Positions 30,261-44,039 of a stretch of DNA of 44,039 nucleotides are shown here, piece after piece. Made by a program: the position numbers and the translations under genes. The DNA comes from Oryzomonas sp. (GTDB lineage: Bacteria > Desulfobacterota > Desulfuromonadia > Geobacterales > Pseudopelobacteraceae): positions 1-44,039 of the forward strand of contig JARLHN010000027.1 in the NCBI GenBank assembly GCA_031292255.1, read 5' to 3'. The notes under the pieces are model-generated. The model was not told the DNA's origin and searched no databases. It was given only the letters and a program-made list of their open reading frames with translations. Numbering within the stretch: position 1 is the stretch's first letter; each line of letters begins with the position of its first letter.

Positions 30261-30312
30261 CCGTGCCCGCCTTCACGGCATCTTTGACCCGGCCTCAATC
30301 GCAAAATCCTCG

Positions 30313-30455
30313 ACGTAGCGCTGCTACGTCTGCGGTTTTACTCGATCGTCCGGGCCAAATCTGCCGCAAATCCGGGCGCGGTACGCACAGGCACTTCCCG
30401 CCTTTCATCGTCGCACCCGCAGAAAAGACCTGCGGAGGCGTAGCAGCGCTACGCC
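30313..30455. repeat. Paired inverted hairpin repeats between merA and gabD
   Basis: Two hairpins, ACGTAGC-GCT-GCTACGT (30313-30329) and GGCGTAGC-AGC-GCTACGCC (30437-30455), lie 107 bases apart. They are inverted copies of each other with shared flanks (GATTTT next to CGAGG), so the whole stretch about 30297-30475 can fold into a large cruciform. It lies between convergent genes. This resembles dispersed intergenic repeats in Geobacter genomes and may act as a terminator. Confidence 0.65.
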
Positions 30456-30508
30456 GCACAAGGTGATTTTCGAGGATGGCGGCGAGATGACTGTTTTTCA
30501 ACAACCTG

Positions 30509-31966
30509 TTAATGGATTCCCCCCATGCACAGGTACTTGATCTCCAGGAAATCATCGACCCCGTACCGGGAGCCCTCCCGGCCGACCCCTGATTCCTTCA
30601 CTCCGCCGAAGGGGGCGACCGCAGAGGAGATGAGGCCGGTGTTGATGCCGACAATCCCGTACTCCAGTGCCTCCGCAACCCGCCAGACCCTGCCCAGGTC
30701 CCGGCTGTAGAAGTAGGAGGCCAGCCCGAATTCGGTGTCGTTTGCCATCCTGACCGCCTCTTCGTCGGTGGTGAAACGGAAAAGGGGCGCCACCGGGCCG
30801 AAGGTCTCTTCGCGGGCCACCGCCATGGCGGGAGTGACATCGGCCAGGACAGTGGGCTGGAAGAAGCTGCCGCCAAGTTCGTGCCTTTGACCGCCGGTGA
30901 CGATGCGCGCCCCCTTGGCAACGGCGTCGGCGATGTGTTCCTCCACCTTTTCCACCGCTTTCATGTCGATCAGCGGCCCCTGCTGGGCTTCTCCCTTCAG
31001 GCCGTCGCCGACCTGCAACCTGCCCACGGCAACAGACAATTTTTCCGTAAAGGCGTCATAGACGCCGGCTTGTATCAGGAAGCGGTTGGTGCAGACGCAG
31101 GTCTGGCCGGTGTTGCGGAACTTGGAGGCGATGGCCCCCTCCACCGCGGCATCCAGATCGGCATCGGCGAAAACGATGAAGGGGGCGTTGCCGCCCAGTT
31201 CCATCGCCACCTTCTTGACCGTTCCGGCGCACTGCTGCATGAGCATTTTGCCGATCTCCGTCGAGCCGGTGAAGGTCAACTTGCGGACAATCGGATTGGC
31301 GGTCAACTCGCCGCCGATGGCGCCGGAGGCCCCAGTAACGACGTTGAAGACGCCGGCCGGTATGCCGGCCCTTTCGGCCAGGACGGCCAGGGCCAAAGCC
31401 GAATAGGGGGTCTGGCTGGCCGGCTTGAGGATCATGGTGCAGCCGACGGCCAGGGCCGGCCCGGCCTTGCGGGTAATCATGGCGGCCGGGAAATTCCAGG
31501 GTGTGATGGCGGCGCAGACGCCGATCGGCTCCTTGATGACAACGATCCGCTTGTCGTTTTGAAAGGTGGGGATGGTGTCGCCGTAGACCCGCTTACCCTC
31601 CTCGGCAAACCATTCGATGAACGAGGCGGCATAGGTGATCTCGCCTCGGGACTCGGCCAGCGGCTTCCCCTGTTCGGCGGTCATCAGGATTGCCAGGTCT
31701 TCCTTGTTTTCGAGCAAGAGCTCGTACCAGCGGCGCAGGAGCTGGGAGCGCTCCGCGGCGGTCCTGGCCCTCCAGGCCGGAAAGGCTGCGTTGGCCGCCT
31801 CTATGGCGGTGCGGGTCTCAGCCGTCCCCATCCTGGGGACCGTGCCGATGACCTCGTCGGTGGCGGGGTTATTGACCGGAAAGGTTCCACCGTCCGTGGC
31901 ATCGAGCCACTGTCCGTTGATGTAACATTGTTGGCGGAAAAGGGTCGGGTCTTGCAGTGTGAACAT
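30509..31966 (-). CDS. gabD: NAD(P)-dependent succinate-semialdehyde dehydrogenase family protein
   Basis: The 485-residue aldehyde dehydrogenase has the N-terminal YINGQWLDA, the cofactor segment ITPWNFPAAMITRK and TFTGSTEIGK. The catalytic Glu is in VAMELGGNAPFIVF and the catalytic Cys in NTGQTCVCTNRF; the ending is FGGVKESGVGREG. Sequence and length fit GabD, which oxidises succinate semialdehyde to succinate, although related semialdehydes are possible. I start at 31966 because GGAGGAGTGACGCC precedes it; the upstream ATG at 31990 lacks this. It is a single gene convergent with merA. Confidence 0.85.
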   Translation of the reverse strand: MFTLQDPTLFRQQCYINGQWLDATDGGTFPVNNPATDEVIGTVPRMGTAETRTAIEAANAAFPAWRARTAAERSQLLRRWYELLLENKEDLAILMTAEQGKPLAESRGEITYAASFIEWFAEEGKRVYGDTIPTFQNDKRIVVIKEPIGVCAAITPWNFPAAMITRKAGPALAVGCTMILKPASQTPYSALALAVLAERAGIPAGVFNVVTGASGAIGGELTANPIVRKLTFTGSTEIGKMLMQQCAGTVKKVAMELGGNAPFIVFADADLDAAVEGAIASKFRNTGQTCVCTNRFLIQAGVYDAFTEKLSVAVGRLQVGDGLKGEAQQGPLIDMKAVEKVEEHIADAVAKGARIVTGGQRHELGGSFFQPTVLADVTPAMAVAREETFGPVAPLFRFTTDEEAVRMANDTEFGLASYFYSRDLGRVWRVAEALEYGIVGINTGLISSAVAPFGGVKESGVGREGSRYGVDDFLEIKYLCMGGIH

Positions 31967-32065
31967 GGCGTCACTCCTCCGTTGAGTCAAGCTGGTGCAG
32001 CGAGTGGATGCTATTCTACCTCAAAGCCTTGTGAAGTAAAGTGTTGAGTAACGCAACATGCATTT

Positions 32066-32122
32066 TGCATTGACGTTTCCTTTATGCTTTTTCCACTCAT
32101 TTTGACACCTATTTTATTTCGA
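32066..32122 (+). promoter_or_regulatory. Shared kdp-cluster control element, copy 1
   Basis: Two TTGAC boxes at 32070 and 32102 are 32 bases apart, with conserved TTTCCTTA-like and ACTCATTTTGACACC segments between and a following ATTTTAT. The same arrangement, with the same 32-base spacing, lies at 35974-36030 before the second unit. Three helical turns between boxes suits a regulator bound in tandem, or a promoter with an upstream site. ATGCA-TTT-TGCAT overlaps its left edge. Confidence 0.65.
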
Positions 32123-32241
32123 ATGAACTAGGCTGATAAACAGATAGATAACCCTCTGAAGTTTTTGAGAAGTGCAATGTTGGAAAATAATCGGCAAGAG
32201 TACAATATGCGCAACAAATCATGGGCAGGATGGTGGCACCA

Positions 32242-32820
32242 ATGATATCAGCACTTATTTGCGACGGCGACCCGGGAATCAGGGCCAGCATAAGGAATGA
32301 ACTCAAAGAACTCGGTTTTGACTCAATATCCGAGGCCGTGGATGGAAAATCGGCCGTGTCGATGGCCTTTGAAGGTCTTCCCGATATAGCTATTATCGAT
32401 GCGGCTTGTGGTTTGAATTCCGCCCGTGAGATCATTCAGAAACTGAGGATTCCCGTTATATTGCTTATGTCGCATTACGATTCGGATATGTTGAACCAAG
32501 TCAAAAAAATCGGAATCACTACAACCTTGAGCAAACCGTTTCGTGGGCAGGATTTGTTGCCTGCGATAGAGATGGCAGTTGCTCATGCCAAAGAGGTGGA
32601 ACTTCTCAAAACAGATGTGGAAAAACTGAATGAAACCATCGAGAACCAGGCAGTCATCTACAAAGCCAAGAAAGTCCTCCTGCGGTCCGGGGGGCTGTCC
32701 GAGTCCGATGCGTACAGAAAGATCCAAAAACTGGCAATGGATACGAAAATGAGCATGCGTCAAATTGCCGAGACAATCCTCATTAACGACAGGTGTGGAA
32801 AAAGGGAAATTCACCCATAA
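32242..32820 (+). CDS. ANTAR-domain response regulator (AmiR/NasT-like antitermination protein)
   Basis: The 192-residue protein has a receiver domain (about 1-115) with acidic residues in ICDGDPG, phospho-acceptor Asp in PDIAIIDAACG and Lys in LSKPF. A coiled linker and a C-terminal ANTAR domain (about 135-185; YKAKKVLLRSGGLSESDAYR, then LAMDTKMSMRQIAETIL) follow. ANTAR proteins bind paired RNA hairpins and prevent transcription termination. I start at 32242, after AGGATGGTGG; upstream ATGs at 32221 and 32230 are weaker. It heads the first kdp unit, where a KdpDE pair would be expected. No histidine kinase is adjacent. Confidence 0.85.
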   Translation: MISALICDGDPGIRASIRNELKELGFDSISEAVDGKSAVSMAFEGLPDIAIIDAACGLNSAREIIQKLRIPVILLMSHYDSDMLNQVKKIGITTTLSKPFRGQDLLPAIEMAVAHAKEVELLKTDVEKLNETIENQAVIYKAKKVLLRSGGLSESDAYRKIQKLAMDTKMSMRQIAETILINDRCGKREIHP

Positions 32821-32845
32821 TCGCCGTGCAAACGGGAGGATCAAA

Positions 32846-33127
32846 ATGAAACAGGTGGATGGAATAATCATTACGAAAGATCTGGAAAGGCTGTCGCAGG
32901 CTCTCGAAGCAAAGGGGTTTATTGTTTATGAAGTTATGTATAATGGCAGCAGGGCAATAAATTCGGGCATTCTCAAAGGTGTAGCCTATATCTACAGCCA
33001 GATAAACAGAGTAATGATAAAGATCGTCATAGACGACAACCTGGTCGGCACACTTACGGATACTCTTCGCGGCATCGGTGAGTGCCGTTTGGACATCTCC
33101 CCTGAAGTACGGGTCAGTCTTGCCTGA
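32846..33127 (+). CDS. Small PII-fold-like protein, copy 1
   Basis: The 93-residue protein follows the PII beta-alpha-beta-beta-alpha-beta plan. MKQVDGIIITKDLERLSQAL matches the PII start (MKxIEAIIKPxKLxxVxxAL), and NRVMIKIVIDDNLVGTL matches the conserved KVKIEIVVxDDxV segment. The T-loop is replaced by SRAINSGILKGVAYIY, and the ATP-binding B- and C-loops are not recognisable. A paralogue at 42480-42761 shares 60 of 93 residues. GGGAGGATCAAA precedes the ATG. It lies between the ANTAR regulator and the MSS51-like gene. PII membership is my fold-level inference. Confidence 0.6.
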   Translation: MKQVDGIIITKDLERLSQALEAKGFIVYEVMYNGSRAINSGILKGVAYIYSQINRVMIKIVIDDNLVGTLTDTLRGIGECRLDISPEVRVSLA

Positions 33128-33139
33128 GGATTATTTACT

Positions 33140-33838
33140 ATGACCGATCCCATTATTACACAGTATCAAGAGTGGAAATACCTGTTGGCGGCATTAAAGG
33201 ATAACCCCAAACTATCGTACATTTGCACTGCGGGAAACTATGTGCAAAAATTGGTTTTGGCTGCACCGCTTGCCATCTCTGCCTTTGTCCTTCGCGATAC
33301 TCCCCAGCTCCGCAATCTTGAAAAGATCAAAATTTTGGTCATTGGCGCACAATGGCACGATGCCTTGGATAATGGTTGCTGGTATCAGTTGATATCGGAT
33401 TTCTGCGGTTTGTCATGCAATGTTGAAGTCACCCTTGTTGGTCCGGATATCTTCATGGAAAACGATCGCAAAACGAGATTGCGGCCCCTGGTCAGAACCG
33501 GTTTTGCCGAAGCTGTCATAATCAAGTCCGGACTGAAAGAAGCAAAGATGGACCTGTCTTCATTCGACCTCTTTGTTTTTTTTCATCCGGGAATCGGATA
33601 CGGTCAGTGTGAATGGATTGAAGGTGCTTTGTCTCTCGTCGTGAAAACAGGCAAGCCGATAATGGCGACTTCGTACGACCGGGCTGAATATGAGATGGAA
33701 GTCGGGTACCTTGAAGCCCATGGCTATTCTGTCGAAGGCGAACCGATTGACAATCCGTTCTTTATTGAACTTGAAGGAGCCGTAAACGGTGCTTTGCAAT
33801 GGGGGCGCGTCCTGTACAAAATAGCGCCCGCCATCTGA
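33140..33838 (+). CDS. MSS51 C-terminal-domain-like protein, unknown function
   Basis: The 232-residue soluble protein has segments that recall the C-terminal domain of eukaryotic MSS51/MYND-type proteins: ILVIGAQWHDA, NVEVTLVGPDIF, LFVFFHPGIGY and GKPIMATSYDRAEYEMEVGY, ending near IDNPFF. The MYND zinc finger is absent. The function of bacterial homologues is not known. It begins 12 bases after the small PII-like gene and lies 113 bases before kdpA1. A role in controlling the transporter is inferred from place only. Confidence 0.5.
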   Translation: MTDPIITQYQEWKYLLAALKDNPKLSYICTAGNYVQKLVLAAPLAISAFVLRDTPQLRNLEKIKILVIGAQWHDALDNGCWYQLISDFCGLSCNVEVTLVGPDIFMENDRKTRLRPLVRTGFAEAVIIKSGLKEAKMDLSSFDLFVFFHPGIGYGQCEWIEGALSLVVKTGKPIMATSYDRAEYEMEVGYLEAHGYSVEGEPIDNPFFIELEGAVNGALQWGRVLYKIAPAI

Positions 33839-33951
33839 CCCATTGTGGATACTGTGGCTCTTGATAAGCTTGATGGAGGTGGACGCGGAATGCGGGAAAA
33901 GAATCTCTGGTCGAGAGAGTCTGCAACGCCTTCTTTTTATGGGAGACCGTC

Positions 33952-35763
33952 ATGCAAGTTACGAATATTGTTTATGATATATCCCAAATCCTCGCTTTAT
34001 TGGTCCTGCTCACCATCCTTGTAAAGCCTCTCGGCTGCTATATGGCAAAAGTCTATCAGGGGGAACGCTCATTGCTGTCTCCGCTGCTTGGTCCAGTGGA
34101 ACGGGCGATCTACCGTATCATCGGCATTGACAAAGATGCCGAGATGGACTGGAAACAGTACGCTGCAACGATGCTTATTCTTAACTTCCTGATGCCGGCA
34201 GCGAGCTTTGCCGTCCTTATGCTGCAAGGACACCTGCCCTTCAATCCTCAAAAATTTCCCGGCTTTTCATGGGACCTTGCGCTTTCCACCGCAATCAGCT
34301 TTGTTACCCAGGCCGACTGGCAACCGTACACCGGAGAATCGGCCGCCAGTTATTTTTCCCAAATAATAGGCCTGATGGTGAACCAGTTTCTCTCGGCTGC
34401 AACAGCCATGGCTATCCTCATTGCCTTTATCCGTGGCCTGGTCCGTCGGACGGCTGCGACTATCGGTAATTTCTGGGTCGATGTAACGCGGGGGACCCTC
34501 TATATCCTGCTGCCGATATCATTCGTGGCAGCGCTTGTGCTTGTTTCACAAGGAGTTATCCAGAACATCAGTCCCTATAAGACCGTCCGGTTGCTGGAGG
34601 CAACAAGCTATCAGAAGCCGAAGCTTGACGAGAAAGGCATTCCGCTCAAAGATGCACACGGAACGCAGATTACTGAGACGATACGCGTGAAAGAACAGCA
34701 ATTGCCGATGGGGCCGGTCGCGGCAATGGAGGTAATTAAGAACCTGGGGACAAACGGGGGTGGTTTTTTCAATGCCAGCTCCGCGCATCCCTATGAGAAC
34801 CCGACACCGTTTTCCAATTGTATAGAGATATTGTTAATACTGATGATTCCTGCTGCCCTGACCTATACCTTCGGCCGCATGGCCGGCAACACGCAGCAGG
34901 GGTGGGCGATCTACTCGGCGATGATGTTCCTCCTGGTCATGGCGGTCGGCGTGCTCTACTGGGCGGAATACAGCGGCAATCCGCTGGTGCAGAAGTTGGG
35001 CATCAACGGTTACTACATGGAGGGCAAGGAAGTCCGGTTCGGGCTCGGGGGTACAGCCTTGTTCACCACTGCGACCACGGCGACCGGATGCGGGGCAATG
35101 AATGCCATGCACGACTCTTTGACGCCACTCGGCGGGATGGTGCCGCTGATGCTCATGCTTTTGAGCGAAGTTGTGTTCGGAGGGGTGGGATCGGGTCTTT
35201 ACACCATGCTTGCCTTTGTGGTGATCGCCGTCTTCACCTCGGGTCTCATGATCGGCAGGATTCCCGAGTTCCTTGGGAAAAAGATCGAGATCACCGAGAT
35301 GTTCATGTCCGTCATTGTTGTCCTTGCCGCCGAAGCCATTACCCTCGTGCTGTTATCCATTGCATTAATCACCCCCGCAGGTGTGAATTCGATTGCCAGC
35401 CCCGGCCCGCATGGCTTGACCGAGGTATTCTATACCTTTGCCTCTACAGCCAACAACAATGGCAGCGCATTTGCCGGTCTGAATGCAAACACCTTGTTTT
35501 ATAACCTGACGACTGCCCTTGCCATGTTCCTGGGAAGATTCGTTCCTGCCATTGCGGTTCTTGCCATTGCGGTTCTTGCCATGGCCGGCTCCCTGGTCCG
35601 GAAGAAGTATTACCCGCCCAATGTCGGGACACTGCCGACCGATCGACTCCCTTTTATTATATGGCTCATTGGGGTAATCCTGATCGTCGGATCCCTGACC
35701 TTTTTCCCGGCCCTCGCCCTCGGACCGTTTGCTGAGCATTTGATGATGCTGGGACGCGGTTAG
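33952..35763 (+). CDS. kdpA: Potassium-transporting ATPase KdpA-type channel subunit (KdpA1), without its own KdpB/C
   Basis: The 603-residue membrane protein is a full KdpA (usual length about 560-600). Filter loops are: [14 protein letters not shown] (about 117); [55 protein letters not shown] and [14 protein letters not shown] are close to classical KdpA. Two oddities stand out. Loop I has TQADW where TNTNW is usual. A perfect 15-bp tandem duplication (35551-35565 and 35566-35580) adds five residues ([10 protein letters not shown]) to a late membrane helix. It ends at its own terminators. It probably borrows the KdpB encoded at 39154, or works as an alternative channel. Confidence 0.88.
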
Positions 35764-35774
35764 CATGGCGAAAA

Positions 35775-35800
35775 AGTCCCCCGCCCCTTGCGGGAGGACT
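35775..35800 (+). terminator. GC-rich hairpin directly after kdpA1
   Basis: AGTCCCCCGC and GCGGGAGGACT form a stem with one bulge and a short CCCTT loop, starting 12 bases after the kdpA1 stop. No U-tract follows. It may protect the transcript end. Confidence 0.45.
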
Positions 35801-35876
35801 GTAATCGGCCCCAGCCTTTTTTGGGGTTATAGATTCGAATTTCCATTTACCCTGGATATTCGATTGGCTCAGCAAA

Positions 35877-35905
35877 AAGGCCGCATTCTTCAAGGATGCG
35901 GCCTT
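35877..35905 (+). terminator. Terminator-like hairpin ending the first kdp unit
   Basis: AAGGCCGCAT and ATGCGGCCTT form a perfect 10-bp stem with a 9-base loop. The A-run before it gives a U-tract on the minus strand; only TT follows on the plus strand. It separates kdpA1 from the second unit. Confidence 0.6.
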
Positions 35906-35973
35906 CACAATTTCCGAGGGGGGCGATCAAGTACCCTACCCGAATCCGCCGCTGCATACGGCAATATTTCGCT

Positions 35974-36030
35974 CGTTTTGACTTTTCCTTAACGCTTTTC
36001 GAACTCATTTTGACACCCATTTTATGTCAA
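35974..36030 (+). promoter_or_regulatory. Shared kdp-cluster control element, copy 2
   Basis: TTGAC boxes at 35978 and 36010 are again 32 bases apart, with TTTCCTTA, CGCTTTTC and ACTCATTTTGACACC closely matching copy 1 at 32066-32122. ATTTTATGTC follows as in copy 1. It lies downstream of the kdpA1 terminator and upstream of the second unit, so both units probably share a regulator or promoter type. Confidence 0.65.
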
Positions 36031-36050
36031 AAGTTTTAGGGTGAAAATCA

Positions 36051-36100
36051 GAAGGGATGTTTAACGATTGTTTCACAAAACAGCTAGACGTTAAACCTTC
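36051..36100 (+). promoter_or_regulatory. Leader RNA hairpin of the second kdp unit
   Basis: GAAGG plus GTTTAACG (36059-36066) can pair with CGTTAAAC plus CTTC (36089-36100), enclosing a small inner stem TGTTT-CACA-AAACA (36069-36082). It lies in the transcribed leader, 60 bases before the first gene, with no U-tract. It is a candidate target for RNA-level control. It does not show the canonical hexaloop pair of ANTAR targets. Confidence 0.45.
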
Positions 36101-36159
36101 ATCAATCGCCTTTTACTATGGTTTAAGAGTACCGGCAGGAGCGAAAGGAAAAACACATC

Positions 36160-36594
36160 ATGACACAGCTAACAGGTAAAAAAATATTACGGGCACTATG
36201 GCTTTTGTTGGTACCGCTCCTTATGCCGGCAGTAGTTCATGCCGTAACGTATTCCTTTCCGGAGAACGAACCGGCATACCTGAAAGATGAAGCCGTTATA
36301 AATGTGGGAACAAAGCTCTATCTGTTTCACAGCGGCTCGGAAGATGTAAGAAAAGCCATAAACGCCAATGATATTCTTGTTGTCTATCGTGAATACCCGT
36401 CCGGCATTTCCCCGGAGGCCAGGGAAACCGGCAAGGTCAAAATCCTTTCCACTTCGGGAGGGTATTATTATGAAGCCGAGGTGATAGAAGGATCTGTTCA
36501 ACCCGGATATCTGGCAAGAAAAGGGACGGTTGCCTGTTTTATTACATCATTCAGGAAGATAGTTCATCGGCAGTCCCGCTTCTTCATCCAATAA
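36160..36594 (+). CDS. Secreted protein of unknown function, first gene of the second kdp unit
   Basis: The 144-residue product has a signal peptide (ILRALWLLLVPLLMPAVVHA, about residues 10-29). A small beta-rich domain follows with KLYLFHSGSEDVRKAINAND, ILVVYREYP and VKILSTSGGYYYEAEVIEG, suggesting an SH3-like barrel in the periplasm. No known family is recognised. Its ribosome site is GCGAAAGGAA. A periplasmic partner for the pump or a sensor is conceivable. It precedes the PII gene by 34 bases. Confidence 0.65.
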   Translation: MTQLTGKKILRALWLLLVPLLMPAVVHAVTYSFPENEPAYLKDEAVINVGTKLYLFHSGSEDVRKAINANDILVVYREYPSGISPEARETGKVKILSTSGGYYYEAEVIEGSVQPGYLARKGTVACFITSFRKIVHRQSRFFIQ

Positions 36595-36628
36595 GTGCCC
36601 CTGACGCAGACAGAAAGGCGGAAAAATC

Positions 36629-36931
36629 ATGAAACTTATAGAAGCCATCATAAAGCCGGTCAAATTGGATGAGGTCAGATCCGCCCTGGAAAAAATAGGG
36701 ATCGATGATTTCATGGAGAGCGCTCTCTTTTGCCATGGCCGCCAGAAGGGGCAGGCCATGATCTATCGCGGCGCTGAATACGTGACGAGCTTTGTTGAGA
36801 AGGTGAAACTGGAAATCATTGCCGCCGACGATTCGGTGGGGAAGGTCGTCGAGGCCATCGGCGCAATCGCCAGGACGGAACGGAAGGATGATTGCCGGAT
36901 ATTCATCCTCCCTTTCGTTGAGGCCGGCTGA
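36629..36931 (+). CDS. Non-canonical PII-family signalling protein (GlnK-like)
   Basis: The 100-residue protein clearly belongs to the PII family: MKLIEAIIKPVKLDEVRSAL, T-loop HGRQKGQAMIYRGAEY with Tyr at position 51, and KVKLEIIAADDSVGKVVEAI. It departs where ATP is bound. The B-loop reads RTERKDDCRIF instead of a glycine-rich TGKxGDGKIF, and the C-terminal RxR of the C-loop is missing because the protein ends after LPFVEAG. It may bind ligands differently or act as a structural regulator. PII proteins usually sit beside ammonium transporters; here one sits in a potassium-pump operon. AAAGGCGG precedes the ATG. Confidence 0.85.
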   Translation: MKLIEAIIKPVKLDEVRSALEKIGIDDFMESALFCHGRQKGQAMIYRGAEYVTSFVEKVKLEIIAADDSVGKVVEAIGAIARTERKDDCRIFILPFVEAG

Positions 36932-36941
36932 AATAGTAGTA

Positions 36942-36956
36942 CCCTCTTTATGAGGG
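36942..36956 (+). promoter_or_regulatory. Small intercistronic hairpin after the PII gene
   Basis: CCCTC-TTTAT-GAGGG forms a 5-bp stem 11 bases after the PII stop, followed by GTTT. It could attenuate readthrough into the membrane genes. The support is weak. Confidence 0.3.
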
Positions 36957-37000
36957 GTTTCAATATCCGAAATAGTCACACTATGAAGGAGGAAACCGAA

Positions 37001-37096
37001 ATGAGCCTTGCAATCGGACTGCCGCTGCTGTTTTTCCTGGGACTGGCAGTAATGAGTCTCTGCTATCTGTTCATGGAAGCGTGCGAGAAAATTTAA
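37001..37096 (+). CDS. 31-residue single-helix membrane peptide before kdpF
   Basis: The product has one clear membrane helix (LAIGLPLLFFLGLAVMSLCY) and ends in MEACEKI. A very good ribosome site, AAGGAGGAAACCGAA, precedes the ATG. It is followed after 16 bases by kdpF, so it resembles a second small Kdp-associated peptide. I do not recognise a named family. The ribosome site and operon position make it likely to be translated. Confidence 0.65.
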   Translation: MSLAIGLPLLFFLGLAVMSLCYLFMEACEKI

Positions 37097-37112
37097 AAGA
37101 GGAGATTACAAA

Positions 37113-37193
37113 ATGATCTATCTAACTGTGGCTGTCGTGATCCTTTTGTTCGTATACCTGTTCACGGCCCTGATTCGGCCGGAATGGTTCTGA
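37113..37193 (+). CDS. kdpF: KdpF, small stabilising subunit of the Kdp pump
   Basis: The 26-residue peptide has a membrane helix and an ending YLFTALIRPEWF. This matches the KdpF pattern (YLxYALIxPExF), and it sits directly before kdpA as in many kdpFABC operons. KdpF helps stabilise the KdpABC complex through lipid-like contacts with KdpA. GAGGAGATTACAAA precedes the ATG. Confidence 0.85.
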   Translation: MIYLTVAVVILLFVYLFTALIRPEWF

Positions 37194-37238
37194 ACAATAC
37201 AGGATACAGATGCCTGGACACTGAGAGGAGCTGACACA

Positions 37239-39068
37239 ATGTTTTTACAAACCTGGTTACTTCCCGTCGCGCTGCTCGTCATCGCGACCATCGTAGCGTT
37301 CCCGTTGAGCCGCTACCTGGCGTGGGTCATGGATGGCAAATACCGGCAACTTCCGGTGCTGAGCTGGTTCGAAAGGAGCCTGGACAGCGGGCCGCAGAAT
37401 TGGAAGCAGTATACCGGTTCCCTGCTCATATTCAACACCGCCCTGTTCGTTTTCGGCTTTCTGGTCCTGGCGGTCCAGCCGTGGATGCCGCTCAACCCGG
37501 ACGCCAAGGGGATGCTCGCGCCGAGCACCATCTTCAACAGCGTGGTGTCGTTCATGACGAACACCAATCTCCAGCATTATGCCGGTGACGTTCATCTGTC
37601 CAACTTCAGCCAAGTCTTCTTCTGCATCTCCAACATGTTTCTCTCCGCCTCCGTCGGGTTCTGCTCCCTGGTGGCGATCATCCGCGCGTTTCGCGGCGAA
37701 GCCTCGCTCGGCAATTTCTTCGTGGATATGTGGCGGGTGGTGATCTACATGTTCATTCCGGCAGCCCTGATCTTCGGCATCATCTTCATGTCGCAGGGGA
37801 GCCCGATGACTTTAAACAGCTCGTACCAGGTATCCACCCTCGAACCGGCGGCCATGGGGACCACGGACAAGGGAGAGGTGAAGAAGCAGACCATTGTCGT
37901 CGGACCGGTTGCGGCCCTGGAGTCCATTAAGATGCTCGGCACCAACGGCGGCGGCTTTTTCGGCATGAACTCCGCCCATCCCTTTGAAAATCCCACCGGG
38001 GTATCCAACTTTTTCAATACGCTGGCCATGATGATCTTCCCGTTTGCGCTGGTGTTCATGTACGGCCGGATGCTTCGCCGGTTGCGGCATTCGTGGATCA
38101 TATTCTCGGTCATGCTGCTGCTCATGGCAGGCACCATCGTCTGGTCGATCTGTTTTGACACGCTACGACCGAACCCTGGGCTGACCGCCCATGCAACCGC
38201 GCAAACCTTTCAAATCCCCAACGCGAAAGCACCGGGAGGAAAACAGGACGTGACCATTCCGGCGGTGGCGGGCCTGCCAGTGGACCAGCACCTGGGCAAT
38301 CTTGAAGGCAAGGAGCTGCGTTTCGGGACCTCGGCGGGCGCCACATTTGCGGCGTTGACGACCGATGTGACCTGCGGCGCGGTGAACGCGGAAATGGACA
38401 GCCTCAACCCGCTCGCGGCCCTCTCACCCATGGTGGGGATGTGGTTGAACTGCATCTTCGGCGGCAAGGGTGTGGGCATGATCAACATGCTGCTGTACGT
38501 CATTATCGGGATTTTCATCGCCGGCCAGATGGTGGGACGGACCCCCGAGTACCTGGGCAAAAAGATCGGGGCCCGCGAGGTCAAGCTCGCGGTCCTGGCC
38601 CTCCTGGTCCATCCGATGATGATTCTCATGCCCACAGGGCTCTTCGCTGCCCTGGACTGGGGGCTCAAGGCCGTGAGCAATCCCGGCGCCCATGGTTTTT
38701 CCCAGATGCTCTACCAGTTTTCCTCTGCTTCCGCCAATAACGGCTCCGCCTTCGACGGCCTGGGTGTTACCTTTGGTTTTGCCAACAATGCGACCCCTTC
38801 CCCGACCGCCATCCCCTGGGATATCGCGACAGGGCTGGTCATCGTTTTCAGCCGCTTTCTGCCGATCATCGCGCCGATCGCCATGGCGGCGTTTCTCGGG
38901 GCTAAAACGACGAGTCCCGCCGGGCTGGGTACATTGCATGACGATACCCCTACCTTTGGCATTTTGGTTCTCGGAACCATACTTATCGTTGGGGCGCTCC
39001 TTTTTCTGCCGGTTGCCGTGCTCGGACCGATTGCGGAGCATTTCGGGCCTATGCCGTTCGGCGGCTGA
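37239..39068 (+). CDS. kdpA: Potassium-transporting ATPase subunit A, divergent type (KdpA2)
   Basis: The 609-residue protein is the K+-binding channel-like subunit. Filter loops are: I, FMTNTNLQHYAGD (about 105); [58 protein letters not shown]. Compared with classical KdpA, including KdpA1, it differs strongly after loop III (NPLAALSPMVGMWLNCIFGG). It has a long loop near 305-370 and an LQ in place of WQ in loop I. It is followed by kdpB and a long kdpC and is presumably the cognate partner of that pair. AGAGGAGCTGACACA precedes the ATG. Confidence 0.93.
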   Translation: MFLQTWLLPVALLVIATIVAFPLSRYLAWVMDGKYRQLPVLSWFERSLDSGPQNWKQYTGSLLIFNTALFVFGFLVLAVQPWMPLNPDAKGMLAPSTIFNSVVSFMTNTNLQHYAGDVHLSNFSQVFFCISNMFLSASVGFCSLVAIIRAFRGEASLGNFFVDMWRVVIYMFIPAALIFGIIFMSQGSPMTLNSSYQVSTLEPAAMGTTDKGEVKKQTIVVGPVAALESIKMLGTNGGGFFGMNSAHPFENPTGVSNFFNTLAMMIFPFALVFMYGRMLRRLRHSWIIFSVMLLLMAGTIVWSICFDTLRPNPGLTAHATAQTFQIPNAKAPGGKQDVTIPAVAGLPVDQHLGNLEGKELRFGTSAGATFAALTTDVTCGAVNAEMDSLNPLAALSPMVGMWLNCIFGGKGVGMINMLLYVIIGIFIAGQMVGRTPEYLGKKIGAREVKLAVLALLVHPMMILMPTGLFAALDWGLKAVSNPGAHGFSQMLYQFSSASANNGSAFDGLGVTFGFANNATPSPTAIPWDIATGLVIVFSRFLPIIAPIAMAAFLGAKTTSPAGLGTLHDDTPTFGILVLGTILIVGALLFLPVAVLGPIAEHFGPMPFGG

Positions 39069-39153
39069 CCCTGGGGTGCCTGTTAAACGGGAAAGCTCGT
39101 GAAGTCATAACACAAATTTGTGAAACGAAACCAAGTGCTCAAAGGAGTACATC

Positions 39154-41307
39154 ATGAATAAGGCATCAAAAACCGAAGAAACTAAATCGGCGACTCCGGG
39201 CCAGCCGCACTCGTCGCACCGCGTAAAGCGGAGAGGACTGCTGGATGCGGAAACAGCGCTGCCGGCACTGAAGCAGGCAGTCATAATGCTGCGGCCGGAC
39301 CTTCAATGGAACAATCCGGTAATGTTCGTCGTGGAGATCGGCGCCATCCTGACGCTTTTCTCCATCGTGCAGATGGCATTTGGGAAGTCCGCCAGTCAGG
39401 TACCGTTAACCTATTTCATCGCCCTCGACATCTGGCTGTTCCTGACCGTGCTTTTCGCCAATTTTGCCACGTCCCTGGCCGAGGCGAGGGGCAAGGCTCA
39501 GGCCGATTCACTCAGGCGGGCCCGCCAAAAAACAATGGCCTATCGCAGGAACAAGGCGGGAGCCATTGAGGAGGTCTCATCGGCAGACCTGAAACCGGGC
39601 GACATCGTTGTGGTGGAGGCGGGACAGATGATCCCCGGCGACGGGGAGATCATCGAAGGGGTCGCCGCCGTCAACGAAGCTGCGATTACCGGAGAATCCG
39701 CCCCGGTGATACGCGAAGCGGGCGGCGACCGTTCCGGGGTAACCGGAGGGACCACGGTCATCTCCGACCGGATCGTGGTGGAGATTACCAGCGGACCGGG
39801 CGATTCGTTCCTCGACCGGATGATCGCCCTGGTGGAAGGGGCCATCCGCCAGCGCACCCCGAACGAGATCGCCCTCACGCTGGTGCTCTCGGCCTTTACC
39901 CTGGTATTCCTGATCGTGGTGGTGCCGCTCTGGCCGATGGCCTGGAACGCCGAACAGTACATGATGGGGTATCTGGGCGCCTCGGAACCATTGAAGAGTC
40001 TCGGCACGGATATCCCGACCCTCATCGCGCTCATCGTCTGCCTGATCCCCACCACCATCGGCGCCCTGCTGGCTGCCATCGGCATCGCCGGCATGGACCG
40101 CGCCATGCAGGCCAACATCATTGCCAAGAGCGGCAAGGCGGTGGAGTTGTGCGGCGACATCGATGTCATCCTCCTGGACAAGACTGGCACCATCACCATA
40201 GGAAACCGGTTTGCGACAAAGTTTATCCCTGTCGGAAAATACAATGCCGCCGATGTGGGGCGGTTGGCCGCCATGGCGTCCATTGCCGATGAGACCCCCG
40301 AAGGGAAGAGCATCGTAGCCCTGTACGAAAAGGAGAGCAAAACCAGGGTCAGCGTGCCGCTGGAAACGCAGCCCGTGCCGTTTACCGCGCAGACACGCAT
40401 GAGCGGCGTCGATATGCCCGATGGGCATCAAATCCGCAAGGGCGCATCGGATGCCGTCATCAAATTCGTCGAGGCGATCAAAGGGCGCGTGCCGGAGGAC
40501 CTCGGTAAAATAGTTGACGGCATCGCTTCCCAGGGAGCGACCCCGCTGGTTGTCGCCGACGGCGCCCAGATCGTGGGAGTGATCGCCCTGGAGGATATTT
40601 TGAAGCCCAACATGATCGAGCGCTTCGACCGGCTGCGGAAGATGGGCCTGAAGACCGTCATGATCACCGGCGACAATCCCCTTACGGCTGCGACCATTGC
40701 CGCGCGGGCCGGGGTGGATGACTTCATTGCCCAGGCAACGCCGGAAACCAAGCTCGCCTACATTCGGGAGCACCAGGCGGCAGGCCACCTGGTGGCCATG
40801 ACCGGCGACGGCACCAACGACGCACCGGCCCTGGCCCAGGCCGACGTGGCCCTGGCCATGAACGCCGGCACCCAGGCGGCCAAGGAAGCGGCCAACCTGG
40901 TGGACCTGGACAGCGACCCGACCAAGCTGATCGAGACCGTGGAGATCGGCAAGCAACTCCTGATGACACGGGGGTCGCTCACCACGTTCTCCATCGCCAA
41001 CGACGTGGCAAAATACTTCGCCATCATCCCGGCGCTCTTCGCCGGGACGCTGCCCTGGCTGAAACCGATCGACATCATGCACCTCCATTCGCCGACCTCG
41101 GCTATTCTGTCAGCGGTCATCTTCAATGCGCTCATCATACCGGTGCTCATACCGATCGCGCTCAAGGGGGTCGCTTACAAACCGCTCGGCGCCGACGCCT
41201 TGCTGCGGCGCAACCTGCTGATTTGGGGCCTGGGAGGCGTTGTCGTACCGTTCATCGGCATCAAGCTGATCGACATGGTCATGGCGGGTCTGCATCTGGT
41301 TAATTGA
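39154..41307 (+). CDS. kdpB: Potassium-transporting P-type ATPase, KdpB catalytic subunit
   Basis: The 717-residue P-type ATPase has the actuator motif [11 protein letters not shown], phosphorylation site [14 protein letters not shown] with Asp342, and nucleotide-domain [10 protein letters not shown]. The hinge [20 protein letters not shown] follows. The TGES serine used for inhibitory phosphorylation in E. coli is conserved. It is about 35 residues longer than E. coli KdpB because of an N-terminal polar tail. It hydrolyses ATP to drive K+ uptake through KdpA. It is the only KdpB in the window and must serve KdpA2, and possibly KdpA1. A 12-bp palindrome CACAAATTTGTG lies upstream at 39111-39122. 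Confidence 0.97.
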
Positions 41308-41339
41308 GCTTTCAAGGCATAGCCCTGATAAACAGGATA

Positions 41340-41388
41340 AGTACGTTAACGAAGTCATTTTCTACCGGAAAATAACTTCTAACGTACT
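41340..41388 (+). promoter_or_regulatory. Long hairpin between kdpB and kdpC
   Basis: AGTACGTTA-AC-GAAGT-C-ATTTTC pairs with GAAAAT-A-ACTTC-TAACGTACT around a TACCG loop. That gives about 20 base pairs with one mismatch and one two-base bulge. No U-tract follows, and it ends just before the kdpC ribosome site (AAGGAGACTTGAC). It is well placed for RNase processing or for setting the KdpC level against KdpB. Confidence 0.7.
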
Positions 41389-41403
41389 ACAAGGAGACTT
41401 GAC

Positions 41404-42420
41404 ATGTTGCGACAGATTTCAAAGAGCATTTTGCTTTTACTATTTTCGGTGGTCATCTGCTGCATCGCCTATCCGCTGGTATTATGGGCGATCGGGCAGG
41501 CCGCCTTCCCCTTTCAGGCCAACGGCAGCCTGTTGCAGGGGCCGGACGGCAAAGATGTGGGATCAAAGCTCATTGCCCAGCCGTTCACCAAGGACGAATA
41601 CTTCCAGCCCCGTCCTTCCTCGCCGTCGTACGATGCTTCGGCCTCGGCCTCGTCTTCTCTGGCGCCTTCCAACTATGCGCTGCGCGACCGGGTTGCACGG
41701 ACGCTGGGTCCCATTGTGACCTACCGCGGCGGCGCCAAGGCCGGTAAACAGGTGGCGCCGGATGTGGAGGCGTGGTTCCAGAAGGACTCCTTCCAGGGTA
41801 AGCCGCATATCGTGGCCCAATGGGCCGATCAGCACAATTCCCTTGCCCAGGCGTGGGTTAACGCAGATCCGAAGAACGGCGCATACGTAGACGAATGGAC
41901 AAAGATCCATCAGGCCATCGTTGCCCAGTGGATCAAGGACAACCCGGCCACACCAAAGCCAAAGGCAGCCGATCTGGCAGTGGTGTTCTTCAAGGATTTC
42001 TCCAACACGAACCCCGGCAGGTTCCCCTCCAGCGTCACGAAAACAGGACCTGACGGCAAGCCGCTGACAGCCATTGAACCGGTCAAGGACGGCTCTGACG
42101 TCCAGTCGATCTTCTTTGAGATGTGGCGGGAAGAGCATGCCGACGCCGACCTCCAGGACGTCCCCGGTGACTTGGTTACCGCCTCCGCATCCGGTCTCGA
42201 TCCTCATATCTCGCTGCAGAATGCCGAGTTCCAGCTCGACCGCGTTGCCGCCAAGTGGGCCGCCAATCTGAAGCGCGACCCGGCCGCGATCCGCAAGGAG
42301 ATAGAGCAGATCATACAAAAAAATGCATCTGCTCCATGGGGAGGACTGATCGGTGAGCAGTTTGTAAACGTGCTGGAAATCAATCTTGAGCTGCGCAAGC
42401 TTTATGGTGCGCCTTCATAG
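41404..42420 (+). CDS. kdpC: Potassium-transporting ATPase subunit C, long form
   Basis: The 338-residue protein starts with the KdpC membrane helix (about 8-30). The conserved QANGSLLQGPDGKDVGSKLI and FQPRPSSPSYDASASASSSL follow. The KdpC ending VPGDLVTASASGLDPHISLQ, then FQLDRVAAKW, is intact. Between them, about residues 95-245, lies an extra domain of roughly 150 residues rich in Trp, Lys and Gln that classical KdpC (about 190 residues) lacks. KdpC stabilises the KdpAB complex and enhances ATP binding. The insert faces the periplasm by topology and may be a partner-binding domain. Confidence 0.92.
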   Translation: MLRQISKSILLLLFSVVICCIAYPLVLWAIGQAAFPFQANGSLLQGPDGKDVGSKLIAQPFTKDEYFQPRPSSPSYDASASASSSLAPSNYALRDRVARTLGPIVTYRGGAKAGKQVAPDVEAWFQKDSFQGKPHIVAQWADQHNSLAQAWVNADPKNGAYVDEWTKIHQAIVAQWIKDNPATPKPKAADLAVVFFKDFSNTNPGRFPSSVTKTGPDGKPLTAIEPVKDGSDVQSIFFEMWREEHADADLQDVPGDLVTASASGLDPHISLQNAEFQLDRVAAKWAANLKRDPAAIRKEIEQIIQKNASAPWGGLIGEQFVNVLEINLELRKLYGAPS

Positions 42421-42479
42421 GAAAACCGGGCTCATGCCGGATCAACGGATCGGCGCCCGGTAAGGGAGAGAGGATCAAA

Positions 42480-42761
42480 ATGAAGCAGGTGGAAGGAATT
42501 GTATATACGAGAGATGTGGAAAAACTGTCAAAGGCTCTCGAAGCACATGGATTCATTGTCCAGGAGGTTGTCTATGATGGCCGCCGGGCAATAAATTCCG
42601 GCATCCTTAAAGGTATTGCCTATGTTTACAACCTGATTAATAGAGTAAAAATACGAATCGTCATAAACGACGATCTGGTCGGCACACTCATGGAGACACT
42701 GCGCAGTTTCGGCGATTGCAGTTTCGACATTCTTCCGGGTGAACGAATCTGCTTCGCCTGA
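42480..42761 (+). CDS. Small PII-fold-like protein, copy 2
   Basis: The 93-residue paralogue of the protein at 32846-33127 is identical at 60 of 93 positions. The block RAINSGILKG, which replaces the PII T-loop, is fully conserved. The segments MKQVEGIVYTRDVEKLSKAL and NRVKIRIVINDDLVGTL follow the PII plan. The ribosome site GAGAGAGGATCAAA resembles that of copy 1. It lies 59 bases after kdpC, so each kdpA-bearing unit has one copy. A regulatory role on the pump is inferred from this pairing. Confidence 0.62.
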   Translation: MKQVEGIVYTRDVEKLSKALEAHGFIVQEVVYDGRRAINSGILKGIAYVYNLINRVKIRIVINDDLVGTLMETLRSFGDCSFDILPGERICFA

Positions 42762-42802
42762 ATGATCGCTGCAAGTTGAAAATAAAGGGATAGGTGATCA
42801 GA

Positions 42803-43258
42803 ATGGAAAATTTTTCGCTGAGTGGCGTGTATGAGGTGGGTAACGAGCTGCTGGACGCCCAGCACAAGGTAATATTGAACTATATGGCAAAGGTCTATAC
42901 GTACCTTTTAGCCGACAAGAAAGATGATGACCTGTTCGGGTTGATAAACAGGCTCGATACCTGCTGCAAGCTTCATTTTCTGGACGAGGAAAAGTTCATG
43001 GAGGAGATGGAACTCCCTGAAACCGAGGAGCACAAGGCCCAGCATGCACTGTTCGTTACGCATCTGGAGAATTTCATGGGCAGGTACGAAGAGTCGGACA
43101 GTGTTAAGAACATTGGCGAACTTGTGTTCCTGAAAGGGTGGTTTCTGGAGCATATCGAGGTATTCGACAAACGGTACGCCGAGTTCAAAAAACGCTTTGA
43201 CATGGCAGTGCATGAATCCACCCGGCAAGCTGCTCTCAAGAACAGCACTACGAAATAA
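42803..43258 (+). CDS. Bacteriohemerythrin (single-domain, O2-binding diiron protein)
   Basis: The 151-residue protein has the full hemerythrin ligand set: His in LLDAQHKVI, HFLDEEKF (H-x(3)-E), EEHKAQHALF (two His) and the closing WFLEHIEVFDKRY (H-x(4)-D). Such proteins bind O2 reversibly at a diiron centre and act in oxygen sensing, storage or delivery. I start at 42803 because AGGTGATCAGA precedes it; a GTG at 42794 is in frame. It may be transcribed with the upstream PII-like gene, 41 bases away. Confidence 0.9.
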   Translation: MENFSLSGVYEVGNELLDAQHKVILNYMAKVYTYLLADKKDDDLFGLINRLDTCCKLHFLDEEKFMEEMELPETEEHKAQHALFVTHLENFMGRYEESDSVKNIGELVFLKGWFLEHIEVFDKRYAEFKKRFDMAVHESTRQAALKNSTTK

Positions 43259-43328
43259 TAGAATTTGAAACCAAATACGGTTTCAATATCAGCACCGATC
43301 ATAACCGATAATGAAAAGGAGAAGGAAA

Positions 43329-44039
43329 ATGAAGTTTGGAAAAATTTTGGCAGCAGCATGTTTAACTGTGGCAACGGCGTGTGGCACGGCAATGGCGATC
43401 CCTTCGGAACAGATCGCGATACCATCGACAGATGCAAAAGGTTTCAAGGAAGTAACCCTCAACATAATCAGCACGCAACGGTTCTCATCGAAAGGAAACG
43501 CGGGCGCCAGCTCATACGATGCCGGCGTTCTCGTGGGCGTGCTCCCTTTCGAATCCCTCAAGTTGGAAGTCGGCTTCGATTACCTCACCAGTAACCTTCA
43601 AAGTGATAACTCCGCCGATAATCACCCCTTCTACCTCAATGCCAAACTGGCCACTCCCGAGGATCTCGGATTCAAGGGCATGCCGGCCTTTGCCGTTGGT
43701 GCCTATAATCTTGGCATCTACGACAAGCCCGAGAGAGGGATTCAAAATTCAGGCGATGTGCTCTCCACCCGTCAAAACCTTGCCTATGCCCTTGTCGCCA
43801 GGACCTGTCCCGTAATCGGCCGTCTTTCCATCGGTGGCTACTATGGCGCGGAACGCGCTCTGGCTACTACCGGTACCGGTAATCCAAGCATTACCAAAAA
43901 CAACAGCGGTATCCTCGCTTCCTGGGATCGCAGCATGACCGAGATTTCCGACAAACTGTGGTTCGGGGTCGACTACCTGAGCGGCAACAACGCCAACGGC
44001 GAACTCGGTATCGGCGGGTCGTGGGCCTTCTCCAAGCAG
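43329..44039 (+). CDS. Secreted beta-barrel-like outer-membrane protein (partial, runs off the window)
   Basis: The frame stays open to the window edge (237 codons). It starts at ATG after AAAGGAGAAGGAAA with a signal peptide (MKFGKILAAACLTVATACGT, then AMA). The mature part has alternating short strands with aromatic ends (KLEVGFDYLTS, FYLNAKLATP, LSIGGYYGAER, KLWFGVDYLSGN), as expected of an outer-membrane barrel. I do not recognise a specific porin family. It follows the hemerythrin gene by 70 bases and may be a separate unit. Confidence 0.65.
   Translation, partial: MKFGKILAAACLTVATACGTAMAIPSEQIAIPSTDAKGFKEVTLNIISTQRFSSKGNAGASSYDAGVLVGVLPFESLKLEVGFDYLTSNLQSDNSADNHPFYLNAKLATPEDLGFKGMPAFAVGAYNLGIYDKPERGIQNSGDVLSTRQNLAYALVARTCPVIGRLSIGGYYGAERALATTGTGNPSITKNNSGILASWDRSMTEISDKLWFGVDYLSGNNANGELGIGGSWAFSKQ

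Follow-up and report, generated by a model that had tools for sequence, protein, structure and literature searches.

The DNA analysed here, called the window below, is one entire contig (C7; 44,039 bases) of a draft genome of Oryzomonas sp. (3.72 Mb, 88.5% complete). Two adjacent, co-oriented units near its end combine genes of Kdp, the textbook high-affinity potassium pump, with genes of PII proteins, which classically integrate the nitrogen, carbon and energy status of the cell. Besides two KdpA, one KdpB, a long KdpC and KdpF, they encode three PII-type proteins and an ANTAR regulator (Table 1). Unit 1 (32070-35763) encodes, in this order, the ANTAR regulator, the small PII-like protein PIIa, an MSS51_C-like protein and KdpA1. 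Unit 2 extends from 35978 to the contig end with h36160, PIIb, a membrane peptide, KdpF, KdpA2, KdpB2, KdpC2, PIIc, a hemerythrin-like protein and an outer-membrane-type protein. The proteins were assigned by Pfam/NCBIfam profile scans, which upheld the gene content named in the initial annotation of this DNA. The extra membrane peptide and KdpF that it had mentioned were both located (31 and 26 amino acids, between PIIb and KdpA2); h36160, the hemerythrin, the outer-membrane-type protein and a common upstream element are added here. The genes for KdpF, KdpA2, KdpB2 and KdpC2 stand together, and KdpB2 has the catalytic residues, being identical to Escherichia coli KdpB at all 13 positions checked. 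Hence unit 2 has the make-up of a KdpFABC pump.

Table 1. Features of the two kdp units in the window.
Feature	Position	Strand	Evidence and remarks
KdpE-type operator/promoter element, unit 1	32070..32144	+	Direct repeat; half-sites on 11-bp register; matrix score 54.1 at 32072
ANTAR response regulator	32221..32820	+	Pfam receiver 4.9e-12, ANTAR 6.1e-15; start perhaps a few codons later
PIIa, small PII-like, 93 amino acids, B-loop missing	32846..33127	+	Pfam P-II E=0.005, under gathering score
MSS51_C-like protein	33140..33838	+	Pfam PF20179 5.9e-8
KdpA1, lone KdpA paralogue, filter loop 1 QAD for NTN, S343G	33952..35763	+	2e-225
KdpE-type operator/promoter element, unit 2	35978..36052	+	Direct repeat; matrix score 51.9 at 35980
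h36160, 144 amino acids, signal-peptide-like start, kdp-cluster accessory	36160..36594	+	Homologues in kdp clusters; no Pfam match
PIIb, 100-amino-acid PII, degenerate B-loop, without C-terminal arm	36629..36931	+	Pfam P-II 4e-16
Single-span membrane peptide, 31 amino acids	37001..37096	+	KdpA2-type loci L062-L068 have a similar peptide before KdpF
KdpF, 26 amino acids	37113..37193	+	Between membrane peptide and KdpA2
KdpA2, divergent KdpA subfamily, near-consensus filter	37239..39068	+	1e-188
KdpB2	39154..41307	+	NCBIfam TIGR01497 1.5e-297
KdpC2, long KdpC, 338 amino acids	41404..42420	+	Pfam 5e-55
PIIc, small PII-like	42480..42761	+	Pfam P-II E=7e-4, under gathering score; 96% identical copy in L048
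Hemerythrin-like protein, GTG start	42794..43258	+	Pfam PF01814 2.2e-9
Outer-membrane-type protein, cut by contig end	43311..44039	+	79.5% identical to protein after PII-hemerythrin in L048

PIIb is assigned to the PII superfamily by its Pfam match. Despite their Pfam scores below the gathering threshold, PIIa and PIIc are PII relatives as well, since the profile of their family matched GlnB in the PDB at 2.8e-7. The PII-type identity that had been given to all three proteins is thus borne out. Comparison of an alignment of the small PIIs (A3) with one of the PIIb type (A2) by hhalign gave a probability of 96.8. PIIa and PIIc are 64.5% identical as proteins and 76% identical as DNA over 292 nucleotides, and the small PIIs diverge strongly from canonical PII (tree branch 100/100). 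A PADLOC search with three proteins returned nothing.

Small PII genes (profile A1) are rare: six were found in five of 141 genomes of the order Geobacterales, and among 395 genomes sampled across the phylum they occur in this genome only. Close members are present in three of the first 57 relatives examined, all of which have some PII. Five of the six genes lie inside kdp clusters, namely both window copies and those of L048, L047 and L070. In L048, from a genome of the same genus (G004), the canonical order kdpB-kdpC-PII-hemerythrin-outer-membrane protein-kdpD contains a PII that is 96% identical to PIIc. L047 has kdpA (read as two open reading frames) and kdpB-kdpC-PII-outer-membrane protein-kdpD-kdpE, and L070 has ANTAR-kdpA-B-C-PII-outer-membrane protein; their PIIs share 58-59% and 57-59%, respectively, with PIIc. 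The sixth gene (L069) is situated slightly downstream of a PIIb-type gene on an 8.5-kb contig without kdpA-E. Searches of plasmids yielded no small PII, and KdpA and PII matches only under 60% identity.

Nine PIIb-type genes (129-190 bits with profile A2) were found, six of them with unmistakable kdp neighbours (window, L083, L119, L122, L068 and L123). The PIIb-type gene of L083 lies 43 nucleotides upstream of kdpA-B-C-D, and L119 has the order h36160-PIIb-kdpA-B-C-D-E. In L122 a KdpD-domain protein, PIIb and KdpA are neighbours, and in L068 PIIb follows KdpA2-B2-C2 and precedes a KdpD-like protein. L123 carries kdpD and kdpE on the opposite strand. A KdpD-like protein is also found near the PIIb-type gene on the 3.8-kb contig of L120, while the short contigs of L121 and L069 show no clear kdp gene near it. 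The KdpD-like proteins of L122 (1437-3200) and L068 (6268-7719), which adjoin PIIb and Kdp genes, have no recognised kinase domain; one consists of a KdpD sensor, a weak Usp and a PTS EIIA-2 domain, the other of Usp, DUF4118 and GAF domains. Two further loci belong to this picture. L157 has ANTAR-h36160-PII-hemerythrin-outer-membrane protein, divergent from canonical kdpA-B-C-D; its PII is 50.5% identical to PIIb and scores 113 bits, which does not separate it from canonical PII. In L066, from a distant family, two KdpA2-type KdpA and one KdpB2 are preceded by a PII that diverges strongly.

Hemerythrin, outer-membrane protein, ANTAR regulator and secreted protein travel in the same cassette, and the presence of the cassette is patchy, as the five genomes with small PII illustrate. 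This would be expected if the window held an ordinary second kdp operon with co-regulated bystanders, inherited with kdp, whose PIIs have no role in K+ transport. However, PII genes are found next to kdp repeatedly, in separate families and in combination with two Kdp subfamilies, and the small PII after canonical kdpC of L048 is conserved to 96%. We regard the bystander explanation as unlikely.

Both units are preceded by a common 75-nucleotide element with 79% identity between the copies. It contains a putative operator of 48 nucleotides, and the same element is also found upstream of canonical kdp operons. For scoring, a position weight matrix was trained on nine sites outside the window, one of them from the canonical operon of the same genome and one from elsewhere in L083. 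All operator scores quoted are from this leave-window-out matrix; earlier patterns and an earlier matrix had included the window's own sites. In the window the two elements are the best matches by far, the third best reaching 8.4 and the maximum of 40 shuffled strands 11.2. Within the order, a matrix site is located no more than 300 nucleotides upstream of PIIb-type operons in all six loci (window, L157, L119, L123, L069 and L083; 19.0-51.9). L157 has sites before h36160-PII, before the hemerythrin gene (14.9) and before a small gene preceding kdpA (14.4). Thus, the link between PII and Kdp that the initial annotation had read from gene context is seen again in some relatives, where PII-family genes are linked to kdp, and the operator is common to both within the order.

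The element of Geobacterales consists of TTGAC/TTTAT-like half-sites repeated on an 11-bp register. The sequence upstream of E. coli kdpF (TTTATA, 5 bp, TTTACA) has the same register, and these two hexamers 5 bp apart are the published KdpE half-sites of E. coli (PMC3264566). This likeness suggests that KdpE would bind the putative operator of both units. The initial annotation had described KdpDE as absent. This holds inside the window, but two KdpDE pairs are encoded elsewhere in the genome, and the operator is of the kind found before canonical kdp operons. Searches of the draft contigs gave three KdpA, two KdpB and two KdpDE pairs for the whole genome. On contig C24 lies the whole canonical set kdpA-B-C-D-E, and a Ser/Thr-kinase-like gene (so named by eye) comes after it. 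A test for contiguity between the window end and the start of C24 was negative. Contig C34 carries kdpD-kdpE together with a transporter assigned to Kup by Pfam and an amino-acid-permease-type transporter. The matrix scores 34.7 at the kdpD operon of C34 in a scan of the whole locus and -17.4 in a scan of upstream sequence only, as the site runs into the called start; at the permease gene it scores 14.7.

Based on these findings we propose that the locus is a potassium-starvation unit, consisting of a second, divergent-subfamily Kdp pump (KdpF-KdpA2-KdpB2-KdpC2) and an accessory cassette of ANTAR regulator, secreted protein, PII proteins, hemerythrin and outer-membrane protein; in some relatives this cassette accompanies canonical kdp operons. 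Both units would most likely be switched on by the KdpDE pair or pairs encoded elsewhere, via the shared operator. The PIIs made under K+ limitation would most likely bind the Kdp machinery, either pump subunits or KdpD, as predicted trimeric T-loop regulators, much as GlnK does with AmtB, SbtB with SbtA and GlnB with the kinase NtrB, and would adjust K+ uptake in response to a second signal. KdpD is as plausible a binding partner as the pump itself. To this explanation as a whole, with KdpDE acting in trans and the PIIs acting on the Kdp machinery, we give an even chance.

The known systems resemble the proposed one in part. According to PMC10117731, GlnK exerts negative control on AmtB. Here, too, a PII gene adjoins a membrane-transporter gene and the T-loop is retained, but a P-type K+ pump and a degraded pocket take the place of an ammonium channel and a canonical ATP/2-oxoglutarate pocket. 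The same paper describes control of the transporter SbtA by the PII-like protein SbtB, and PII-like trimers with non-classical ligands. The pairing proposed here is similar; however, SbtA is a bicarbonate transporter, and the C-terminal redox R-loop of Synechocystis SbtB (PMC10117731) is missing in these short PIIs. E. coli KdpFABC-KdpDE has the same subunits and a KdpE operator of 6-bp repeats 5 bp apart (PMC3264566), whereas in the locus described here KdpA and KdpC are of a divergent subfamily, a membrane peptide and PII genes are added, and the regulators are encoded elsewhere in the genome. Binding of E. coli PII to NtrB is mentioned in passages of PMC12471899 and PMC6978683. A title cited in PMC12471899 says that KdpD controls the pump post-translationally too, and a title cited in PMC6978683 links the E. 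coli nitrogen phosphotransferase system to KdpFABC synthesis. The latter is also a nitrogen-related signalling protein acting on Kdp, but a phosphotransferase protein and not a PII. PstA (DarA) is a PII-like protein that is reported to bind cyclic di-AMP, a second messenger related to K+. In the full-text open-access literature searched for PII together with Kdp or potassium, no report linking them was found, and passages of PMC3264566, PMC9600857, PMC10117731, PMC12471899 and PMC6978683 make no such link either; subscription journals lay mostly outside this search.

Which signal the PIIs might respond to was considered by tabulating residues against canonical numbering for nine PIIb, 15 close PIIb relatives without kdpABC nearby (orphans), six small PIIs and the PII of L066. 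The B-loop TGxxGDGK, the C-terminal RxR and Tyr51 of the T-loop are taken to have their usual roles in PII. Neither PIIb nor the small PIIs have the complete B-loop and C-terminal motifs: Gly84 is lost in all nine PIIb, the B-loop is gapped in all six small PIIs, and both C-terminal arginines are missing in every PIIb, orphan and small PII. Position 89 is Cys instead of Gly in all of them (9/9, 15/15 and 6/6). With this degraded pocket and the Cys for Gly89, the signal is probably not classical ATP/2-oxoglutarate sensing, which is doubtful for the kdp-linked PIIs. On the other hand, Tyr51 is kept in eight of nine kdp-type PIIb and all six small PIIs, as opposed to Phe or Leu in 15 of 15 orphans, and a T-loop-type contact is possible. 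The conserved cysteines, including a Cys35-His36 pair present in all nine PIIb, may hint at a redox or metal input.

Several observations weigh against the proposed explanation. At least 72 of the 141 genomes in the order have a canonical-type KdpA, yet the small PII is missing from 136; it is therefore an accessory and not an essential part. Eighteen close relatives of PIIb (117-140 bits) are orphans without kdpABC in the stretch examined, which for some is a short contig, and thus the PIIb family is not kdp-specific. The L122 gene (129 bits) falls within the orphan score range and was classed by its neighbourhood and by the tree, which groups it with those of L120 and L068. L066 has a PII with Phe51 and Leu89, hence with neither Tyr51 nor Cys89. 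Matrix sites are absent in all four PII-kdp loci outside the order (L120, L068, L122 and L066), before the ANTAR gene of L157 and before the Kup gene of C34 (-2.9). Finally, the pump lacks three-fold symmetry, and a PII trimer bound to it would be unlike GlnK-AmtB and SbtB-SbtA.

The 15 orphans in the tree form a single fully supported group apart from the kdp-linked PIIs, among which the branching order is only partly resolved. As kdp relatives the orphans were rejected after their gene neighbourhoods had been read. No matrix site precedes any of the 18 orphan genes (maximum 2.4) or the three canonical PII genes tested in the Oryzomonas genome. The orphans (L124-L138 and L159-L161) are 97-100 amino acids long and come from several families of the order; L129 and L130 encode identical proteins. 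By our reading, TTGGCAC...TGTA stretches at the orphan genes resemble sigma-54 promoters.

The main rival to a PII acting on the Kdp machinery is a PII that belongs to the K+ regulon but acts outwards. Glutamate is the main counter-ion of K+, and the PIIs could mix with or compete against canonical GlnB/GlnK and thereby adjust ammonium and glutamate metabolism, without binding Kdp. Seven PII-type genes are present in the genome, four canonical ones in addition to the three of the window, and the loss of the B-loop glycines and the C-terminal arm is what a possible non-sensing subunit might show. Homologues of the ANTAR regulator, moreover, occur in 91 of the 141 genomes, and in one examined case (L158) beside a canonical glnK-type PII. 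Nevertheless, adjacency to transporter genes, seen in several families and even inside kdp operons, usually marks transporter regulators, and mixed trimers are doubtful since the small PIIs are so divergent from canonical PII. An outward action appears rather unlikely to us.

The two KdpA proteins differ markedly. KdpA1 shares 63% identity with canonical KdpA and 38% with KdpA2. In the tree it sits on a long branch as sister to 20 Geobacterales KdpA, and its closest relative in the 141 genomes is no nearer than 67%. Among 202 columns invariant in 21 canonical KdpA, KdpA1 departs at 22 (two of them gaps), with changes in or next to the filter loops that include N112Q, T113A, N114D, S343G and V347M. 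At the positions that we take to be the selectivity filter, KdpA1 reads QAD/TNG/GCG/NNG and deviates from the consensus. KdpA2 conforms to it with NTN/TNG/TCG/NNG, the Thr for Ser at 343 being found across its clade. Loop 1 is NTN or NTD in 31 of 33 KdpA rows (E. coli counted twice), the exceptions being KdpA1 and a lone KdpA in L064. In 27 of 32 rows, each with NTN or NTD, kdpB lies no more than 1.5 kb downstream; the other five are KdpA1, the lone KdpA of L064, two KdpA at contig ends and the first tandem KdpA of L066, whose filter is normal. The lone KdpA of L064 (584-2149; 521 amino acids) has strongly altered filter motifs (TTT, ATG, NNGQ) and adjoins an integrase-like fragment upstream of KdpA2-KdpB2. 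The KdpA2 clade comprises eight KdpA rows, and its type occurs in seven other genomes of the 395 in the phylum sample. In other genomes a KdpB2-type KdpB follows the KdpA2-type KdpA wherever the contig extends that far, and KdpC of 338-339 amino acids is also found in L062, L063, L067 and L068.

The initial annotation had proposed a PII-governed Kdp pump with interchangeable channel subunits; in the corresponding model, one KdpB/KdpC would serve two KdpA chosen by the PIIs. The single KdpB beside two KdpA in the window would suit such a model, as would the two adjacent KdpA2-type KdpA with one KdpB of L066. It is highly improbable, however, because KdpA1 groups with canonical Geobacterales KdpA and not with KdpA2, its first filter loop is non-consensus, and canonical KdpB and KdpC are present on C24. 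From the changes in the filter loops and the missing kdpB downstream, it is more likely that KdpA1 is a special subunit for canonical KdpBC, or non-transporting, than that it is an alternative to KdpA2. As a separate, fast-evolving KdpA of the canonical lineage it would, if assembled at all, join canonical KdpB/KdpC as an altered-selectivity or inhibitory subunit. Open frames of 1284-1390 amino acids in five genomes had pointed to a KdpA-KdpB fusion, but this candidate was dropped; the sole case inspected, L086 (G512), consists of two separate genes.

Only tentatively, and well short of an even chance, we consider a wider scenario. A PII subfamily may have moved from nitrogen control to KdpE control as a dedicated Kdp regulator, with Cys in place of a nucleotide-binding Gly and probably a redox or other non-classical input; in addition, lone filter-altered KdpA may swap into canonical KdpBC, where they would be silent or change the ion. 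For the proposed explanation of PIIs acting on the Kdp machinery, the gene linkage and the shared operator suggest that potassium uptake is tied in a new way to nitrogen or energy signalling. If it is true, K+ uptake in several genera would receive a second, post-translational input from a PII branch controlled by the kdp operator. The question is now directly testable as binding of PII to KdpFABC or KdpD.

Further members of the cassette recur in related kdp loci. ANTAR regulator homologues in kdp-linked loci are those of L070 (64-65% identity) and L157 (49%). A remnant (44 amino acids at 43%) lies directly upstream of h36160-PIIb-kdpA in L119 (6478-6657), where the regulator may be decaying. 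Dual hexaloop hairpins as ANTAR target RNA numbered 0-1 in each of eight stretches (shuffled means 0.02 to 1.32) and were inconsistent between loci; Rfam at gathering thresholds gave no match in 30000-44039, and an ANTAR target RNA is not proposed. Homologues of h36160 were found in the kdp clusters of L085, L088, L119, L123 and L157. Hemerythrin is the same neighbour in L048 (87.6%) and L157 (34%), and the L048 homologue of the outer-membrane-type protein matched nothing in Pfam. The MSS51_C-like protein, encoded between PIIa and KdpA1, has no counterpart in the compared kdp clusters among the matches listed. Several canonical operons of the order have a gene for a protein family of 70-90 amino acids (sm89) immediately before kdpA or kdpD (among them L048:3804-4073, without a Pfam match, L070:6155-6394, L086:11424-11657 and L089:9584-9817). 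Ser/Thr-kinase-like genes, named by eye, adjoin kdp clusters in two genera (L004:8566-9561 and L157:13869-14903), and L085 (genome G469) has two canonical kdp operons in tandem.

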